From: Ktedonobacterales bacterium
GTDB taxonomy: Bacteria; Chloroflexota; Ktedonobacteria; Ktedonobacterales; DATBGS01
Reading direction: 5' to 3'
DNA: 64,000 bases
Assembly (NCBI GenBank): GCA_036557285.1
Contig: DATBHW010000003.1
Span: 124,001-188,000, forward strand
Part shown: positions 2,644-62,680 of the stretch, piece by piece
How positions within the stretch are numbered: the first letter of the stretch is position 1
Layout: every line of letters starts with the position of its first letter
Translations under genes and position numbers: made by a program
The notes under the pieces: generated by a model
Databases searched by the model: none
What the model was told of the DNA's origin: nothing
The model's input: the letters and a program-made list of their open reading frames with translations, nothing else

Positions 2644-2648
2644 ACGCT

Positions 2649-2753
2649 TAGAATGCCTCACACAACCGACGGGTGGCCCCACCCCTGCCGCCTGGAAGGA
2701 CGGCGCTACACCCCCGCCCCTGCTCGTGCGGAGGTTTTGTGAGGCGCTCTTAG
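2649..2753 (+). repeat. family A small mobile element, copy 1 (105 bp)
   Basis: This 105-bp unit begins TAGAATGCCTCACACAACC and ends TTTTGTGAGGCGCTCTTAG. It differs by one base from the copy at 29336-29440 and by about five from the inverted copy at 50191-50295. The ends are imperfect inverted repeats around GCCTCACACAACC, and a TTAG tetranucleotide stands at both borders, possibly a target duplication. The centre holds the GCCGCC-type hairpin seen throughout the window. The right border supplies the TAA stop (2750-2752) of the FemAB gene. Confidence 0.85.
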
Positions 2754-3970
2754 CTGCCGCGCCTCCTGAGCAGATAGGCGCGAAAGGCGGTGAGGGACGC
2801 CAGCAGACGCGCGCCGCCCAGAAAGATGCGGTAGGCCAGGGGCGCGTAGACGTAATCAAACGCGCCAATATATTGGATTACCTTGCCACCCCAGCCACGC
2901 TTGAACTGCGTGACGCCTGCCAGGGGGTCGCCGGGATCATCGCTGTTGGCGATCCCCCACAGGTCGTAGAGCGTGGCCCCCTGCGCTTTGGCCCAGCGCA
3001 TGGCCTCCCACTGGAGCAGGTGATTGGGCATCAATTGGCGGTTCTGGTCGCTGGACGCCCCATAGAGGTAGATGCCCTGCCTGCCGACCCGCGAGACAAA
3101 GATACCAGCCAGTAACGTTCCCGCATGCTCTGCCAGGAACAACTCTGCCTGATTGCCTGCTTTGAGTGACTTCCAGGCACGCTGATAGTATGAGAGGGTC
3201 CGACTGGCAAAGCGATCACGCGCGCGCGTGATTTCCACGAGGTCGTACCAGTGTTGCAGATCATCCAGGCTCTGAGCCTGGCGCACCGTGATGCCCTTGC
3301 GCGCGGCCAGGTTGGTGTTATAGCGCCATTTCGCCTTCTGCCGCGAGGCAATGGTCTGTTCATCAGCCGCCAGGTCAACGGCAATGGTGCGAAGCTGCTG
3401 AATGTGGTCGGGCGTGCGGCGAAAGCCCAGGTTGTTGAGCCGCCGGGCAACCTCCTGGCCCTGAGCCGCGCTGTAGAGGCCGCCAAAGCGGGCCGCCGGA
3501 TCAGCAGGCGTCTGGGAGGGGGAAGCAGGGTCGGCTTCCCCGTTTTCACCGATCTTTTCTGGCAGATCAGGCTCCACGCGCAGCACAGCGACGCGGCGGG
3601 TGCGCAGATAGGCATGGAGGCCGGCCAGGAAGAGTTCGCAGCAGGCGGCGTCGGACCAATCGAGGGCAGGCCCTTTGGGGATATAGGCAAACAGCGAGCC
3701 GGTCAGGGGAATAGGGCGCAGCAGCGCCTGCGCCCCGGCCAGCAGGCGGCCAGAATCAGCATCCCAGAGGGCGATGCGCAGCGGCTCCCAGCCAAGCGTG
3801 CGCTTGAGTTCTCCCCAGGCCCAACACTGGAGCAGGTGGCCGTTGGGAGTATCGGCCACAAAAGCGTCCCACATCTCCTGATCGTTCTGGCCCAGGACCG
3901 TCATCTGGGAGCCATCAAGAAAGCGATGAACGATGCTCCCTGGCGCAACGCGGGCGATTGGTTGAACCAT
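2750..3970 (-). CDS. FemAB-family peptidoglycan bridge aminoacyltransferase
   Basis: The 406-residue product matches the FemA/FemB/FmhB family, which adds amino acids from aminoacyl-tRNA to the lipid II stem peptide in the cytoplasm. The N-terminal GNAT-like half contains HLLQCWAWGELK near residue 45, and the C-terminal half contains YDLWGI followed by KRGWGG, the usual FemAB/Acetyltransf_6 signature. Length is typical. The start ATG has AGGGGG upstream, and a consensus promoter lies about 90 nt further back. The stop codon lies inside a 105-bp mobile element, so the last residues may have been altered by its insertion. Confidence 0.85.
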   Translation of the reverse strand: MVQPIARVAPGSIVHRFLDGSQMTVLGQNDQEMWDAFVADTPNGHLLQCWAWGELKRTLGWEPLRIALWDADSGRLLAGAQALLRPIPLTGSLFAYIPKGPALDWSDAACCELFLAGLHAYLRTRRVAVLRVEPDLPEKIGENGEADPASPSQTPADPAARFGGLYSAAQGQEVARRLNNLGFRRTPDHIQQLRTIAVDLAADEQTIASRQKAKWRYNTNLAARKGITVRQAQSLDDLQHWYDLVEITRARDRFASRTLSYYQRAWKSLKAGNQAELFLAEHAGTLLAGIFVSRVGRQGIYLYGASSDQNRQLMPNHLLQWEAMRWAKAQGATLYDLWGIANSDDPGDPLAGVTQFKRGWGGKVIQYIGAFDYVYAPLAYRIFLGGARLLASLTAFRAYLLRRRGS

Positions 3971-11975: not shown

Positions 11976-12102
11976 GTTCCATCACGCATGAGGTGTTAGC
12001 AGGCGAGGCGTGTTACTTGTAGCGCCGCCATCTTGGCGGCCAGTCGCTCGCCGCCTGGAAGGCGGCGCTACAAGTGGCTCCCTCCCGCTAGTTGGTGGAA
12101 CT
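11976..12102. repeat. family B small mobile element, 127-bp copy
   Basis: The left end starts GTTCCATCA and the right end reads TTGGTGGAACT, matching the GGTTCCACCA inverted ends of the other family B copies. Two GCCGCC hairpins lie inside (12017-12040 and 12049-12074). The flanks are TCGGACACA (11967-11975) and TGGGACACA (12103-12111), an 8/9 direct repeat read as an aged 9-bp target duplication. It fills much of the 429-bp gap before the regulator gene; nothing else was recognised there. Confidence 0.7.
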
Positions 12103-16970: not shown

Positions 16971-17072
16971 GCCGCCTGGAAGGCGGCGCTACAGGCCACA
17001 CCAGACCCCACCCTCGCCGCCAGGGACGGCGGCGGTACACGCGGGTGGCCGCCTGGAAGGCGGCGCTACAAG
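16971..17072. repeat. GCCGCC hairpin cluster (three units)
   Basis: Three hairpin units (GCCGCCTGGAAGGCGGCGCTACA, GCCGCCAGGGACGGCGGCGGTAC and again the first type) are packed between the convergent PIG-V-like and pspAB genes. All three are in the same orientation. No terminal inverted repeats of family A or B are present. Confidence 0.75.
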
Positions 17073-29285: not shown

Positions 29286-29335
29286 GGGCGCCTATCGCTC
29301 TCATCGGCCATCGTTGCTTTCCTTTCCTGCGGCTT

Positions 29336-29440
29336 TAGAATGCCTCACACAACCGACGGGTGGCCCCACCCCTGCCGCCTGGAAGGACGGCGCTACACCC
29401 CCGCCCCTGCTCGTGCGGAGGTTGTGTGAGGCGCTCTTAG
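29336..29440 (+). repeat. family A small mobile element, copy 2 (105 bp)
   Basis: This copy differs from that at 2649-2753 by a single base. Its inverted ends are the most complete: GCCTCACACAACC on the left and GGTTGTGTGAGGC on the right, with TTAG at both borders. It lies between the hydrolase remnant and an unknown gene, and supplies the TAA stop (29437-29439) of the latter. Confidence 0.87.
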
Positions 29441-29979
29441 CTCCAATCCTCCAAAATGCCGACGCGAGATAAGCCAGCCACCATCTGGCTCACCCATTCC
29501 AGCGCCAGCCGCGCGTCACCCAACTGGCGCTCCAGTTCTCGATAGACCTGGCCGACGCGCTGGCCCTGATGCAGCAGACAGACCCGGCGCACAATCCGAT
29601 TGAGCAGCCAGAGCGGGGTGGCCGCGCTGCGTAAGCCGCTCTCGATTTCGGTCTGAAGGACCAGCAGCAAGCCGCGCGGAGTCTGCTGGCTCAGGCGATC
29701 ATCGGCAAAGGGACGCCAGCGGCAGCACTGTTCGGCAGGGACAGCGCCGACATCTTCTTCGTTCCAGGCCGGACGTTTTTCGACCAGCGGCAGCAAGCGA
29801 CGGATGCACTCTATTTGCCCCGCAGCGGGCAGCCCGGCCACCAGCAGCGCCAGTTCATACCTGCGCCCCTCCGGCGAGACGGCAGCAGACGCGGCGTGCC
29901 TCTGAGAACGCCGGGACAAGGGCGTATCCCCGGGGCGCTTCGAGCCAGCATCGGGACGTTTCGGGCCAAAGAGAAACAT
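29437..29979 (-). CDS. hypothetical protein behind a long leader
   Basis: A 180-residue protein starting MFLFGPKRPDAGSKRP, with a helical body (YELALLVAGLPAAGQIECIRR, and LVLQTEIESGLR further on) and no recognised domain. It has no signal peptide or membrane segment. AAGGAG lies 7 nt before the ATG at 29979, so the frame open to 30153 upstream is not needed. A consensus promoter lies over 300 nt upstream. The stop codon falls inside a family A element. Confidence 0.6.
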   Translation of the reverse strand: MFLFGPKRPDAGSKRPGDTPLSRRSQRHAASAAVSPEGRRYELALLVAGLPAAGQIECIRRLLPLVEKRPAWNEEDVGAVPAEQCCRWRPFADDRLSQQTPRGLLLVLQTEIESGLRSAATPLWLLNRIVRRVCLLHQGQRVGQVYRELERQLGDARLALEWVSQMVAGLSRVGILEDWS

Positions 29980-30337: not shown

Positions 30338-30600
30338 GGTTCCACCACCTATCGGGGAGCCACTTGTAGCGCCGCCTTCCAGGCGGCTCGCCCGTAGCGC
30401 CGCCGTCTCGGCGGCTCAACGCTGGCCCTGGCGAACGCTCGCCCTGGCATGAGACGCCCGCCCTGGCGAAGTGCTGGCCGCCGGGACGGCGGCGGTACAG
30501 GCGGAGGCCGCGCTGTTCGCCCTCTAGCGCGACGGTCCGGCAGGCCAGCGTTGAGCCGCCGAGACGGCGGCGCTACAAGTCTTGCCGCATGGGCTGAACT
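30338..30600. repeat. family B element, degenerate copy (about 263 bp)
   Basis: The left end GGTTCCACCACCTATCGGGG is intact and followed by ACTTGTAGCGCCGCC. Four hairpin units lie inside (30364, 30393, 30478 and 30557 onward). The right end reads ATGGGCTGAACT, about 8 of 12 matches to the expected ATTGGTGGAACC, and no target duplication is seen. It is probably an old or internally rearranged copy. Confidence 0.6.
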
Positions 30601-35082: not shown

Positions 35083-35166
35083 CACTTGTAGCGCCGCCTT
35101 CCAGGCGGCCAGCGATGAGCCGCCTTCCAGGCGGCGCTACAGGCGCTGCCGTCTCGGCGGCTCATC
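35083..35166. repeat. GCCGCC hairpin cluster (three units)
   Basis: Units at 35087-35110 and 35120-35142 and a partial unit near 35148-35161 lie between the convergent MauE-like and zinc-ribbon genes. The cluster opens with CCACTTGTAGCGCC, which resembles the inner part of a family B end, but no GGTTCCACCA terminus is present. The final GGCGGCTCATCGC supplies the TGA stop (35162-35164) of the zinc-ribbon gene. Confidence 0.75.
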
Positions 35167-38224: not shown

Positions 38225-39811
38225 CTATTGCTGCCAGATGACGCTGCCGTCGCTGGTCCACAGCGCCAGAACACTGGCGTCGGTCTGGACAAAGATCGCC
38301 TGATCGGTCAACGCCAGGATCGGGGTCAACCCTGGGTTGTCGAGACGCTGATGCCAGAGCAGCTTTTGATCGCTGGCGCGCAGGGCGTTCAGGAGGCCAT
38401 CGCCGCTGACGAAATAGAGGACGCCATTGGCAAGCAGCGGCCCGGCCAGGGACCAGGGGGCAATAATGGGCGTGAATGAGGGCGTCTCGTAGCGCCAGAG
38501 CTGCTTGCCATCTTTGGCGCGCAGCGCGTAGAGAACGTCTATGCAGGTTAATCCCGATGAGTCGCAGTAGCCGCCCGTTCCCAAGTAGACCACGCCACCG
38601 GCAACCACTGGCGCTGAGACCGCATCCTGCGTCGGATCGAACCGCCAGAGCGGCCCGCCATCGCTGGCCCGCAGCGCGAAGAGATGCGGAATAATGTCAT
38701 CCCTCGAAGGGGCCAGTATCCGCTCATCCACGAAGGCATAGACGCCGCTGCCATCTACGCCAAGCCCCTCCAGGTACGGCAAACCCTCCAGGCCCAGCGG
38801 CGCGCGCCAGCGTTGCGTGCCATCGCTGACGCGCAAGGCGACCACCCCCGCGCCTACACCGACATACATACTGCTGCCGAAGACGGCTGGCGGCGACATC
38901 ATCTGGTCGGGGGCGGCATAGCGCCAGAGCGTATGCCCATCGCTGCCACGAAACGCGGTAATGGCTGGCGCAACTGTGATTACCGGATCGCCCTGATCGC
39001 CCTTGTGATAGACGCTATTCTCAAAATAGACCACCCCATTCGCAGCGGTGAGCGTCGGCTCAAACTCGACCTTCTGCGGCTGCGACTGCCAGAGGACGCT
39101 GCCATCGCTGGCGCTCAGAGCCAGGACAGACACGCTCTCACTGTCGCCCAGAAGAACGTACACTCGGCCCTGATCGCTCACCAGATTGGAGAACGCTCCA
39201 CTCTGTTTGGAGCGCCAGAGTACCTTCCCATCGCCCCGGCGCAACGCCAGAACTCTTGAGACATCGCCGGATTCATTGGTAATCGCGTAGAGAACGCCGG
39301 GTATGCGCCCGACAGGTGAGGGCGTGCCGCTGGGAGAGGGTATACCGCTGGGAAGGGCGCTGGGCGTGCCAGGAGACACAATGTTGGGGGGCGCGCTGCT
39401 GGAGGGTGAGCCACGCGATACGAAGATGGCGACGGTCAGGAGAATGACGACCAGTACAGCAGCCGACGGAGCCATCCAGCTAACAAAACGGCGCGCCGGA
39501 CGCCGGGGAGCTTCGGCGCGCGGCGCTGGCGGGGCAGCCATCGTCTCTTGCCGTTCAACGCTATCAATCACTCCTTCCGGGGAGACAGCGGGAAACCCAG
39601 CCGAAAGTGAAGCGATATGCCGTCGCAAGGCCGCTTCCAGAGCGGTATATTCCTTTAGCTGCTGCCGACACCAGCGACAGAGAGCTACATGCGCGCGCGC
39701 CTCGGCGCCGCGCGCCTCTGCAAGCTCAGCGGTATTCAGCAGCGGCAGCAGATCGGCAAACTGGTTGCAATCCGGTCCAGGGGCAAGCGGCCCCAGAGAT
39801 GGTGTTTTCAT
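38225..39811 (-). CDS. anti-sigma factor with extracellular PQQ propeller
   Basis: The 528-residue protein has an N-terminal zinc anti-sigma domain with HVALCRWC at 41-48 (H-x3-C-x2-C), one membrane segment (about 113-133), a Pro/Ser linker, and about seven PQQ-type blades, for example RVLALRRGDGKVLWRSKQ and SVLALSASDGSVLWQSQ. It probably holds the upstream-encoded ECF sigma factor at the membrane and releases it on a signal sensed by the propeller. Its ATG overlaps the sigma stop codon by 4 bp (ATGA). Confidence 0.87.
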   Translation of the reverse strand: MKTPSLGPLAPGPDCNQFADLLPLLNTAELAEARGAEARAHVALCRWCRQQLKEYTALEAALRRHIASLSAGFPAVSPEGVIDSVERQETMAAPPAPRAEAPRRPARRFVSWMAPSAAVLVVILLTVAIFVSRGSPSSSAPPNIVSPGTPSALPSGIPSPSGTPSPVGRIPGVLYAITNESGDVSRVLALRRGDGKVLWRSKQSGAFSNLVSDQGRVYVLLGDSESVSVLALSASDGSVLWQSQPQKVEFEPTLTAANGVVYFENSVYHKGDQGDPVITVAPAITAFRGSDGHTLWRYAAPDQMMSPPAVFGSSMYVGVGAGVVALRVSDGTQRWRAPLGLEGLPYLEGLGVDGSGVYAFVDERILAPSRDDIIPHLFALRASDGGPLWRFDPTQDAVSAPVVAGGVVYLGTGGYCDSSGLTCIDVLYALRAKDGKQLWRYETPSFTPIIAPWSLAGPLLANGVLYFVSGDGLLNALRASDQKLLWHQRLDNPGLTPILALTDQAIFVQTDASVLALWTSDGSVIWQQ

Positions 39812-41373: not shown

Positions 41374-41482
41374 GTAGCGCCGCCGTCTCGGCGGCCAAAC
41401 GCTGCACCAGCGCGGGCTGCTGCTCCTCCGAGCGCACCGCCTCGGCAAGCCATCGGTGGGCCGCCGAGACGGCGGCGCTACG
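41374..41482. repeat. GCCGCC hairpin pair
   Basis: GTAGCGCCGCCGTCTCGGCGGC at 41374-41395 and its inverted counterpart GCCGCCGAGACGGCGGCGCTAC near 41461-41482 flank a 65-bp spacer rich in GC. The whole can fold as one long hairpin with smaller hairpins at its ends. It lies between recF and the acetyltransferase leader, just upstream of the leader promoter. Confidence 0.8.
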
Positions 41483-50190: not shown

Positions 50191-50295
50191 CTAAGAGCGC
50201 CTCACACACCCTCCGCACGAGCAGGGGCGGGGTTGTAGCGCCGTCCTTCCAGGCGGCAGGGGTGGGACCAACCGTCGGTTGTGTGAGGCATTCTA
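50191..50295 (-). repeat. family A small mobile element, copy 3 (105 bp, inverted)
   Basis: On the - strand this copy starts TAGAATGCC and ends TCTTAG, differing from copy 2 by about four bases. It lies between the isochorismatase and DinB-like genes and supplies the TAG stop (50293-50295) of the isochorismatase gene from its left border. Both border orientations carry in-frame stops, so the element terminates genes either way round. Confidence 0.87.
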
Positions 50296-50829
50296 AAAGG
50301 CGATTTCCGCCGCTGGCTGCACTTTGATCGGCTTGCCAGGCGTCACCAACTGGGGCAGGATCGTATTGTGATAGGCGACGATCTGGTCCCACGTAAAGGG
50401 CGCTCTGTCGCCAGTCAGATGCCCATCCGCAGCCAGCGTCACAGCATAGCCCAGGCTGGCGGCGCGACGGCAGGTCGTATCCACGCAAAACTCGGTCTGC
50501 GCGCCCACAATCACCAGATGGCTGACGCCGCGCGCCTCCAGTTCGCGCTGAAGCGTCGTATCGTGGAACGAATCCGACGCGCGCTTCTGTACGATCAGAT
50601 CACCCTCCGCAGGCGCAATCGCCGGATGAATCGGAAAGCCCGGCGCGCCCGGCTCCAGCGGATGCCCGGACCAGCCGTTATGCTGCACATAGACCACCGG
50701 GCTGCCCGCCGCGTGGGCGCGAGCGATGAGCTCCGTGATGTGTTCCAATACCTCGCGGTCCTCTTCATAGGCTTCATCAAAGAGGCCCATCTGCACATCA
50801 ATAATCACCAGCGCCGTCTTGTTGTTCAT
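50293..50829 (-). CDS. isochorismatase-family cysteine hydrolase
   Basis: The 178-residue protein has the catalytic triad of the family: Asp 11 in IIDVQ, Lys 82 in VQKRASDSF and Cys 115 in QTEFCVDTTCR. Family members are amidases or nicotinamidase-like enzymes; the substrate here is unclear. It lies downstream of the dienelactone hydrolase gene on the same strand. Confidence 0.9.
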   Translation of the reverse strand: MNNKTALVIIDVQMGLFDEAYEEDREVLEHITELIARAHAAGSPVVYVQHNGWSGHPLEPGAPGFPIHPAIAPAEGDLIVQKRASDSFHDTTLQRELEARGVSHLVIVGAQTEFCVDTTCRRAASLGYAVTLAADGHLTGDRAPFTWDQIVAYHNTILPQLVTPGKPIKVQPAAEIAF

Positions 50830-55011: not shown

Positions 55012-55171
55012 GGTTCTACCAAAAAGCGGGGGCCACCTGTAGCGCCGCCTTCCAGGCGGCCAACGCTGCGCCAGGGCGAGCGTTCGCCTCCAGGCCACGG
55101 CGCCAGCAGGCCACCGTTGGCCGCCGAGACGGCGGCGCTACCAGCGGCAACCCCCGATCATTGGTGGAACC
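55012..55171. repeat. family B small mobile element, complete 160-bp copy with perfect 9-bp target duplication
   Basis: The left end is GGTTCTACCAAAAAGCGGGG and the right end is CCCCCGATCATTGGTGGAACC, near-perfect inverted repeats of about 35 bp that include GTAGCGCCGCC. The element is flanked exactly by TCGTCAAAT at 55003-55011 and 55172-55180, the mark of a transposition that duplicated nine bases. Two hairpins lie inside. It sits about 100 bp upstream of the restriction-modification genes. Confidence 0.88.
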
Positions 55172-55387: not shown

Positions 55388-57844
55388 ATGCAGATTGGCG
55401 ATATTCTCAACGGAACCTATCAGGTTGAGCATCCGCTCGGTATGGGCGGCCAGGCGCGCGTCTGGCAGGCGCGCCACCTGCGCCTGCCGCGCCGGTTTGC
55501 CATCAAAGAATGCCCCCTGGCCGGAGCCGACCTGCGCGAGCGGGCCGAGCGCCGCTCCCTCTTCGAGCGCGAGCGCGATATTCTGGCCGCCCTCAGCCAT
55601 CCGGGGCACCCGGCCATCCCCAAAATCTCCGACTTCTGGGAAGAGCCTGACCAACTCTTTATTGTCCTCGATCTGGTCGAAGGCGAAACCCTCATCGAAC
55701 TGCTGGCGCGCCGGGGCCGTGTCACCATGCCCGAAGCCATCAACCTTGGCAGGCAAATCTGCGAGGTGCTGACCTATCTGCATAACTGGACACCGCCCAT
55801 CATTTACCGCGACCTCTCGCCCGACAACGTGATCCTGGACCGCTCAGGCCAACTGCACCTCATTGACTTTGGCATCGCCCGCACCTACAAACCTGGTCAG
55901 GCCCAAAACACCTCTTCACTCGGCAAGGTCGGCTACGCCAGCCCCGAACATCTGGAGGGCGGCAAAGCGCAGACCGACGTGCGCTCAGACATCTACACAG
56001 TCGGAGCCTTGCTCTATCATCTGCTCACCGGCCAGGAACCCATCCCCGTCGTAGATCGCCTCAAGCAGCGCGCCGGACTCCAGGGAGGCCGCGCGCTCAC
56101 TCCGCCCCGCAGCCTCAATCATCATCTTACCCTCGCCATAGAAAATTGCATCGTGCGCGCGATGGAACTGGAGCCAGCCCGCCGCTTCCAGACCGCCGAA
56201 GAACTGGAGCGCGCCCTGCAAGCCTGCGATCTCTCCGGGCGTCAGACGCCGCTTCCCCTGCCCTCTGAAAGAAGCCAGCAGCGCATCCGAACCAGGCCAG
56301 TTGATCCAGCCAGTTTCTGGGGCGGGACCAGCGCGCCAACCGCGACGCCACCCTCGCTTCCACCACACCCACCCTCGGCCAGACCCTGGCCGCCGGAACA
56401 GCCCGCGCCGCCAAATCAACCCCCTCTGCGCGGCCCAACCAGCGGGCCAAATATCAACAGAGGTCTGCCCCCAGCCATCAGCGGCAACCTGGGGCCAGCG
56501 CCCCTGCGCCGAATGGCAACCGGACCAGCAGGCTCGGCGCCCACACCAGCGCCCAGCGGCCCGCGCAGCGCAGGCGAGAGTGCGGGAACCCTGTTCCCGC
56601 AAGGGACGCGGCCCGCAGGGAGCGGCCCGCTGCCAGAACATCCCACCTCAAGCCACCAGGCATACCCCGGCAGGGCCAGTGGACCGGGCAGTATTGGCAC
56701 ACGCAGGCCAACCGGCTCACAGGGCTTGCAAGCCCCCGGCCATATCCTGCCCGACCTCCCTCTTGATCACAGCAGCCGCGCGCTGGTCCCCGCTCCCCCT
56801 GGCCGCGAACCGTTGCCCCGCGCGCCCGTCCAGCGTGGCCCGCTGCTCTCTCGCCGTCGGCTGCTCGTTGGCTTTGGCGTCGTCGGCGTCGCCGTTGTAG
56901 GTTTTGGCGGGGCAGCTTTCCTTCTCAATCGCGCGCGTTCGCCCTATACCGCCCTGTTCACGCTCAACGGCGACTCGCTGCCGGTACAGTGTGTCGCCTG
57001 GTCGCCAAACTCACGCCTGCTGGCAGGCGGCGGCAATAGCAAACTGATAAAAATCTGGGATACACGCACCGGCGCTTCCACCATGACACTGCGGGGCCAC
57101 ACCGACTTTGTGCAGGGCGTGGCCTGGTCAAACAACGGCATCAACCTCGCCTCAGCCTCCGCCGATAAAACCATTCTCATCTGGGACGCGCTGCAAGGCG
57201 GCTCGCCAGAACTCACCCTACTCGGCCATACCGATACCGTCTATGCTGTCGCCTGGTCTCCTGATCGCAGCATGCTTGCATCGGCCTCTGCCGACCAGAC
57301 TGTGCGCATCTGGGACGCTCAACACGGCGGCCAACCCAAACAGATATTGACCGGCCACAGCGATGCCGTCTACGATGTCGCCTGGTCGCCCGATGGCGAA
57401 CTGGTCGCCAGCGCCTCCAACGACGGAACCACCAAAATCTGGGACTGGCGCCAGGGTGGCGCGGCGCTGCACTCGCTCAATAGCAATACCGGCTTTGTGC
57501 GCGGCGTCTCCTGGTCGCCCGACAGCAAGCAGATCGCCAGCGCCTCGCGCGATCAGGTTGTCACCGTCTGGAACGTGGACACCAGTTTCCCACCGGCTTT
57601 CACGCTCAGTGGCCCCAAAGACGTAGTGACCTCCGTGAGTTGGTCACAGGATGGCGCGCTGCTGGCGGCTGGCTCAGCCGACCATACCGTACTCATCTGG
57701 GATGCCCACCAGGCTGGCCCGCCGCTCAACACCCTCACCGGCCACAGCGAAATGATTACTTCTGTCGCCTGGTCGCCCGATAACACCATGCTCGCTTCGG
57801 CCTCCAGCGATAACACCGTCATGGTCTGGCAGCGTCAATCATGA
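55388..57844 (+). CDS. Ser/Thr protein kinase with C-terminal WD40 propeller
   Basis: The 818-residue protein has a kinase domain with G-loop GMGGQARVW at 18-26, Lys 40, catalytic YRDLSPDN at 140-147 (Asp present; the usual Lys is Ser 144) and DFG at 160-162. A Pro-rich disordered stretch (about 300-500) and a membrane segment (about 517-540) follow, then seven WD40 repeats, for example VAWSPDRSMLASASADQTVRIWD. The propeller would lie outside the cell. The start is likely the ATG at 55388; an ATG at 55304 is also in frame. Confidence 0.87.
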   Translation: MQIGDILNGTYQVEHPLGMGGQARVWQARHLRLPRRFAIKECPLAGADLRERAERRSLFERERDILAALSHPGHPAIPKISDFWEEPDQLFIVLDLVEGETLIELLARRGRVTMPEAINLGRQICEVLTYLHNWTPPIIYRDLSPDNVILDRSGQLHLIDFGIARTYKPGQAQNTSSLGKVGYASPEHLEGGKAQTDVRSDIYTVGALLYHLLTGQEPIPVVDRLKQRAGLQGGRALTPPRSLNHHLTLAIENCIVRAMELEPARRFQTAEELERALQACDLSGRQTPLPLPSERSQQRIRTRPVDPASFWGGTSAPTATPPSLPPHPPSARPWPPEQPAPPNQPPLRGPTSGPNINRGLPPAISGNLGPAPLRRMATGPAGSAPTPAPSGPRSAGESAGTLFPQGTRPAGSGPLPEHPTSSHQAYPGRASGPGSIGTRRPTGSQGLQAPGHILPDLPLDHSSRALVPAPPGREPLPRAPVQRGPLLSRRRLLVGFGVVGVAVVGFGGAAFLLNRARSPYTALFTLNGDSLPVQCVAWSPNSRLLAGGGNSKLIKIWDTRTGASTMTLRGHTDFVQGVAWSNNGINLASASADKTILIWDALQGGSPELTLLGHTDTVYAVAWSPDRSMLASASADQTVRIWDAQHGGQPKQILTGHSDAVYDVAWSPDGELVASASNDGTTKIWDWRQGGAALHSLNSNTGFVRGVSWSPDSKQIASASRDQVVTVWNVDTSFPPAFTLSGPKDVVTSVSWSQDGALLAAGSADHTVLIWDAHQAGPPLNTLTGHSEMITSVAWSPDNTMLASASSDNTVMVWQRQS

Positions 57845-62570: not shown

Positions 62571-62680
62571 GTAGCGCCGCCTTCCAGGCGGCTCAACGTC
62601 GAGCTACCGGAATGTTCGCGCTGGAGGGCAAACGTTCGCACCAGCGCAGCGTCCAGCCGCCTGGAAGGCGGCGCTACAGG
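62571..62680. repeat. GCCGCC hairpin pair
   Basis: GTAGCGCCGCCTTCCAGGCGGC at the left and GCCGCCTGGAAGGCGGCGCTAC at the right are perfect inverted copies separated by about 65 bp. It lies between the convergent XRE/TPR and Ig-like protein genes. No family A or B ends and no direct repeats were seen. Confidence 0.8.

Follow-up and report, generated by a model that had tools for sequence, protein, structure and literature searches.

Three near-identical copies of a 105-bp repeat lie in the window, the whole 64,000-nt stretch of Ktedonobacterales DNA analysed here, and at each of them a gene on the minus strand ends at the border of the repeat. An earlier note on this DNA proposed that the element provides the stop codons of these genes, which raises the question of whether the repeat creates gene ends or settles at gene ends that are already present. 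The reading favoured here, with a probability of about 0.88, is that the repeat is a non-autonomous MITE of the IS5 family with IS427-group-type ends, that it preserves the stop codon instead of creating it, and that it accumulates at gene ends.

Element structure and target site

The repeat unit is a 99-bp element inside 3-bp duplications (TTA/TAA; 3 + 99 + 3 = 105 bp), starting with G and ending with C when read from its AAT end (Table 1). Copies 1 and 2 are 99% identical in direct orientation and copy 3, which is inverted, is 95-96% identical; these identities bear out the three near-identical copies described earlier, although the coordinates given then were about one base off. The inverted ends are longer than first reported: terminal inverted repeats of 17 bp (GARYGCCTCACACAACC) are found in about 55 copies, and the 55 copies readable with their flanks give the end consensus GAATGCCTCACACAACC and, on the opposite side, GAGCGCCTCACACAACC.

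Table 1 Positions of the MITE copies, their target duplications and REP-like palindromes in the window
Feature	Position	Strand	Remarks
MITE copy 1	2651-2749	+	99 bp
Outer target duplication TTA of copy 1	2648-2650	.	
Target duplication TTA of copy 1	2750-2752	-	TAA stop of FemAB-like gene 2750-3970 on - strand
REP-like palindromic core of copy 1, GCCGCCTGGAAGGACGGCGCTACA	2687-2710	+	boundaries from sequence
MITE copy 2	29338-29436	+	99 bp; inner arms 13 bp, perfect
Outer target duplication TTA of copy 2	29335-29337	.	
Target duplication TTA of copy 2	29437-29439	-	TAA stop of uncharacterised gene 29437-29979 (start as called here)
MITE copy 3	50195-50293	-	99 bp, inverted
Target duplication TAA of copy 3	50192-50194	.	
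Target duplication TAA of copy 3	50294-50296	-	with base 50293 gives TAG stop 50293-50295 of isochorismatase-like gene 50293-50829
REP-like palindromes	12019-12071, 16971-17069, 30366-30576, 35088-35140, 41374-41481, 51601, 55039-55141, 62571-62677		

About 55 full copies occur on both strands of the 5.1-Mb assembly (82 contigs), and no match was obtained with reversed control patterns, so that a chance origin of the repeat can be excluded. The 48 copies with a standard 91-bp inner part diverge from the consensus by 2.3 bases on average. Inverted ends, target duplications and copy number all agree with the mobile element that had been supposed. Divergent MITE sub-families with different cores are present in the same genome (L086 8171-8298 and L070 4282-4371), and the L070 copy directly adjoins a standard copy.

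The flanking TWA duplications are identical in 44 of 55 copies, and their middle base agrees between left and right in 48 of 55. In the 11 copies without identical duplications, some differences stem from mutation and some perhaps from recombination between copies. When the 44 empty sites were restored, they read C (33), T, T or A (22 each), A, G (34), which corresponds to the motif YTWAR. The TTAG border noticed originally, equivalent to CTAA, is contained in this target, but YTWAR (C-T-T/A-A-G) describes the border better. A 5-bp duplication CTWAG was considered and rejected: the inner G and C are near-constant and the outer C and G vary, so the inner bases are the element's own and the duplicated part is TWA. 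No convincing paralogous empty site was found in an 851-kb sample of the genome.

The core palindrome resembles the many GTAGCGCCGCC...GGCGGC repeats of this genome. A 35-bp core unit that includes this palindrome is present two or three times in tandem in five further copies (L088 6784-6943 and 10158-10283, L096 8203-8363, L098 3919-4044, L101 7386-7509), indicating that the core is able to expand in the manner of a minisatellite. The BrickBuilt MITE of Porphyromonas gingivalis likewise carries tandem repeats within inverted ends, but its unit is 23 bp and, unlike the element described here, it always lies 49-591 nt from coding sequences and hence never at stops (PMC4596501).

Relationship to IS5-family insertion sequences

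Inverted ends, a target duplication, a length of 99 bp without a transposase gene and about 55 copies are the features of a MITE, and ends in common with an autonomous element were found in other genomes (L177, L184, L188). When 84,980 species genomes were scanned for the exact pattern of the end motif, 50 stretches were returned, some of which will be chance matches. The ends shared with intact IS5-family elements elsewhere read GARYGCCTSACAMAACC, and they adjoin DUF4096 transposases in Skermanella, Aureimonas and Massilia genomes. Intact elements of 845-863 bp (L188, 845 bp; L177, 863 bp) with DUF4096/DDE IS5-family transposases and TTA duplications occur in Aureimonas and Skermanella. The transposase of L188, encoded in two overlapping frames, matches DUF4096, DDE_Tnp_1 and the NCBIfam model 'IS5 family transposase', and it sits between the same ends that in the 99-bp element enclose no such gene. 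Another genome of the same phylum contains a 114-bp element (L286) with the same ends that still encodes MAKPLVSDELWAVIEPLLPG, which resembles the start of the L188 transposase; judging from its sequence, this would be a direct view of MITE formation by internal deletion. The end-motif scan also turned up short elements, alike in length but with cores unrelated to this one, in Massilia, Planctomycetota, Acidobacteriota, Verrucomicrobia, Myxococcales and Anaerolineales.

The earlier note had suggested looking for a transposase that shares these ends; one was found in other genomes but not in this assembly, where the single DUF4096 transposase (L163) has different ends. The partner transposase of this genome is presumably absent, lost or unassembled. 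Among 40 relatives of the same order, none of them from the host's own genus or family, no copy of the element was found, and the end motif occurs in 3 of 400 genomes of the phylum, this genome included. A phage or plasmid origin was rejected, as PLSDB and IMG/VR gave no match. An attC-like recombination site, which the GCCTAAC/GTTAGGC look of the ends might suggest, was dropped because the same ends bound DDE transposases. Two Massilia elements with about 770-800 bp between such ends (L127 and L158) contain no transposase frame; they were rejected as autonomous elements and are larger non-autonomous relatives. In Paracoccus lichenicola the end motif is found only near two contig ends (L117 and L150, position 37-56), which have the same sequence; a multi-copy IS that broke the assembly would give this picture.

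The IS427 group has been described in Paracoccus by its length and two-frame transposase layout (PMC3281130), and the intact elements found here share its size (~845-863 bp) and its overlapping DUF4096 and DDE frames. The MITE has in common with this group a short TA-containing target duplication, but differs in being 99 bp long without a transposase gene and in that a 3-bp TWA duplication fits best, whereas duplications of the IS427 group are mostly listed as 2 bp (PMC3281130). The putative IS427-group assignment is drawn from layout and length. The IS5 element of E. coli has a similar target preference (CTAG/CTAA/TTAG in the ISfinder table), but a 4-bp target and a full-length element, and gene-end residency is not reported in the accessible part of that source (PMC5493358). 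As far as the available sections of their descriptions go, the RUP, ERIC and Correia/NEMIS MITEs are likewise about 100 bp long, with inverted ends, a TA duplication, tens of copies and a hairpin; their cores are AT-rich, in contrast to the GC-rich core here, and a position at stop codons, seen in 42% of copies here, is not mentioned for them in those sections (PMC2229807, PMC10969869).

Stop codons at the insertion sites

A YTWAR site carries a stop codon on each strand before any insertion, either as TAA in the duplicated part or as TAR running into the next base, and taking out the element and one duplication in silico leaves the stop unchanged. At copies 1 and 2 the stop lies wholly within the duplication, the empty state being a putative one; for the FemAB C-terminus, most matches to relatives break off around residue 383 of 406 and are therefore uninformative. 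The isochorismatase-like gene at copy 3 ends ...AAEIAF-TAG, and nine homologues from the same order, in whose genomes no MITE copies were detected, end at the aligned residue. With the stop inside the duplicated target and nine homologues ending at that very residue, it is not the element that supplies the stop. What holds of the original claim is that the stops of the adjacent minus-strand genes are located in the border of each of the three copies; they belong to the target duplication. If the element itself supplied the stop and redefined gene ends, a stop at its border, as in 23 of 55 copies, would be expected, and in the TAG cases the G is indeed its first base. This is at most the third base of the codon, however, and the target had G or A there anyway; with the stop surviving removal, and with the homologues contradicting it for copy 3, this explanation is very improbable.

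The proposal that a target preference meets stop codons was borne out by a census of copies scored against control target sites. Stop statistics refer to an 851-kb sample, 17% of the genome and chosen to surround the copies, in which genes were called with a home-made codon-usage gene caller and targets were scored in the restored state. Among the 55 targets, 23 overlap the stop of a gene, 28 are intergenic and 4 lie within a gene; the 942 other YTWAR sites in these 851 kb comprise about 69 stops, 332 intergenic sites and 541 sites in genes. Stops are thus hit by 23 of 55 copies, whereas they make up 7% of YTWAR sites overall and 17% of those that are non-coding; relative to the latter the odds ratio is 3.4-5.7 (p 1e-4 to 3e-7 across four gene-calling thresholds), and matching for local GC gave 23 observed versus 9.0 expected. 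Sites 1-60 nt downstream of stops were chosen as further controls because promoter breakage is less likely there; against these the ratio was 23:7 versus 69:60 (OR 2.9, p 0.02, uncorrected), and against sites up to 150 nt downstream the OR was 2.1 (p 0.05, uncorrected). Between convergent genes, 8 of 8 copies are at stops versus 19 of 49 controls.

A similar pattern is seen in a Myxococcales MAG (G051), where 15 of 20 copies are at stops versus 12 of 51 (24%) non-coding target sites (p 1e-4) and 17 of 20 duplications are intact; relative to nearby 3' sites the ratio is 5.6 (p 0.07). In a planctomycete MAG (G050), 5 of 15 copies are at stops, an excess that is not significant. In L188 the intact IS occupies the stop position of an open frame of 444 aa. 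Together, the Myxococcales pattern and this neighbouring stop suggest that the habit may be general for the IS group.

The target motif and the loss of harmful insertions explain most of the stop bias, and what remains is a marginal 2-3-fold excess over nearby 3' sites. An IS427-type transposase, since lost from the genome or missed by the assembly, would act in trans, cutting at the element ends and joining them to TWA sites. In a genome of 61% GC an element that lands within a gene would mostly do damage, but one that lands on the gene's own stop would regenerate it through the duplication; copies would accumulate at gene ends because of these two effects. Spread with little harm, as supposed in the earlier note, is also the simplest reading of the stop coincidence. 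The element may thus be regarded as a near-harmless transposon in a dense, GC-rich genome, in which the duplicated target is a stop on both strands and insertion rebuilds the gene end.

Neither steered insertion nor retention for function is needed for the bias. Insertion could be actively steered to gene ends beyond motif and selection, for example by supercoiling or by termination of transcription or translation, and the excess over both sets of downstream sites, the GC-matched comparison, the copies between convergent genes and the same habit in the Myxococcales MAG would all fit. Yet the numbers are small, the tests uncorrected and the gene caller home-made, and survivorship among insertions can give the same pattern, which leaves steering unlikely. 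It is no more probable that IS427-type elements and MITEs are actively guided to gene ends in several phyla, with stops as a true safe-harbour target class beyond YTWAR and purifying selection. Alternatively, copies at gene ends could be kept because the hairpin serves the host, perhaps as a transcript end or mRNA stabiliser; the inverted ends are long and fold well (z -2.3 to -4.3) and copies are enriched at gene ends. Within the 13-bp stem, however, most changes lack a compensating one (46 broken, 4 one-sided and 2 compensated cells), which fits a protein-recognised end pair better than a maintained RNA structure. With, in addition, no match to Rfam families in the window and no intrinsic terminator-like site around copy 2, an intrinsic terminator or RNA family was rejected, and a host function of the hairpin is improbable. 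Least credible of all is that the repeat belongs to the REP/IS200-IS605 type, with a Y1 transposase that cleaves at TTAG and moves the element in single-stranded form. The core does resemble the GTAG palindromes of the genome, and Y1 transposases are present, but that mechanism involves no duplication and ends that are not inverted. It was rejected because the duplications are true ones, with a matching middle base, and because the two ends are inverted repeats of one another that enclose DDE transposases in other genomes.

An IS5-type MITE as such is a known kind of element, and no description of its stop-codon habit was found in the literature searched. Nothing specific on stop-codon residency of IS5-type elements appeared in that literature, which left out most subscription journals, and a 2024 review of prokaryotic MITEs gives insertion preferences with stop codons unmentioned in its accessible part (PMC10969869). 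The habit is testable across many genomes and is relevant to the annotation of gene ends.

Other repeats in the window and genome

A second and far commoner repeat consists of REP-like palindromes, GTAGCGCCGCC(N3-6)GGCGGC, often in inverted pairs, with 17 strict matches in the window and 219 in the 851 kb. REP elements that rely on Y1 transposases typically have such a GTAG head. One Y1 (IS200/IS605-type) transposase gene of this genome (L253, G000:C72:19577-19936) adjoins an inverted GTAG palindrome pair (L253 2018-2070) and is a candidate mobiliser of these palindromes. In addition, degenerate tandem repeats with aligned units of about 39-41 nt lie inside long open frames at 38349-39248 (spacing 117-165 nt) and 57248-57804 (spacing 129 nt) of the window; these frames probably encode repeat-domain proteins.
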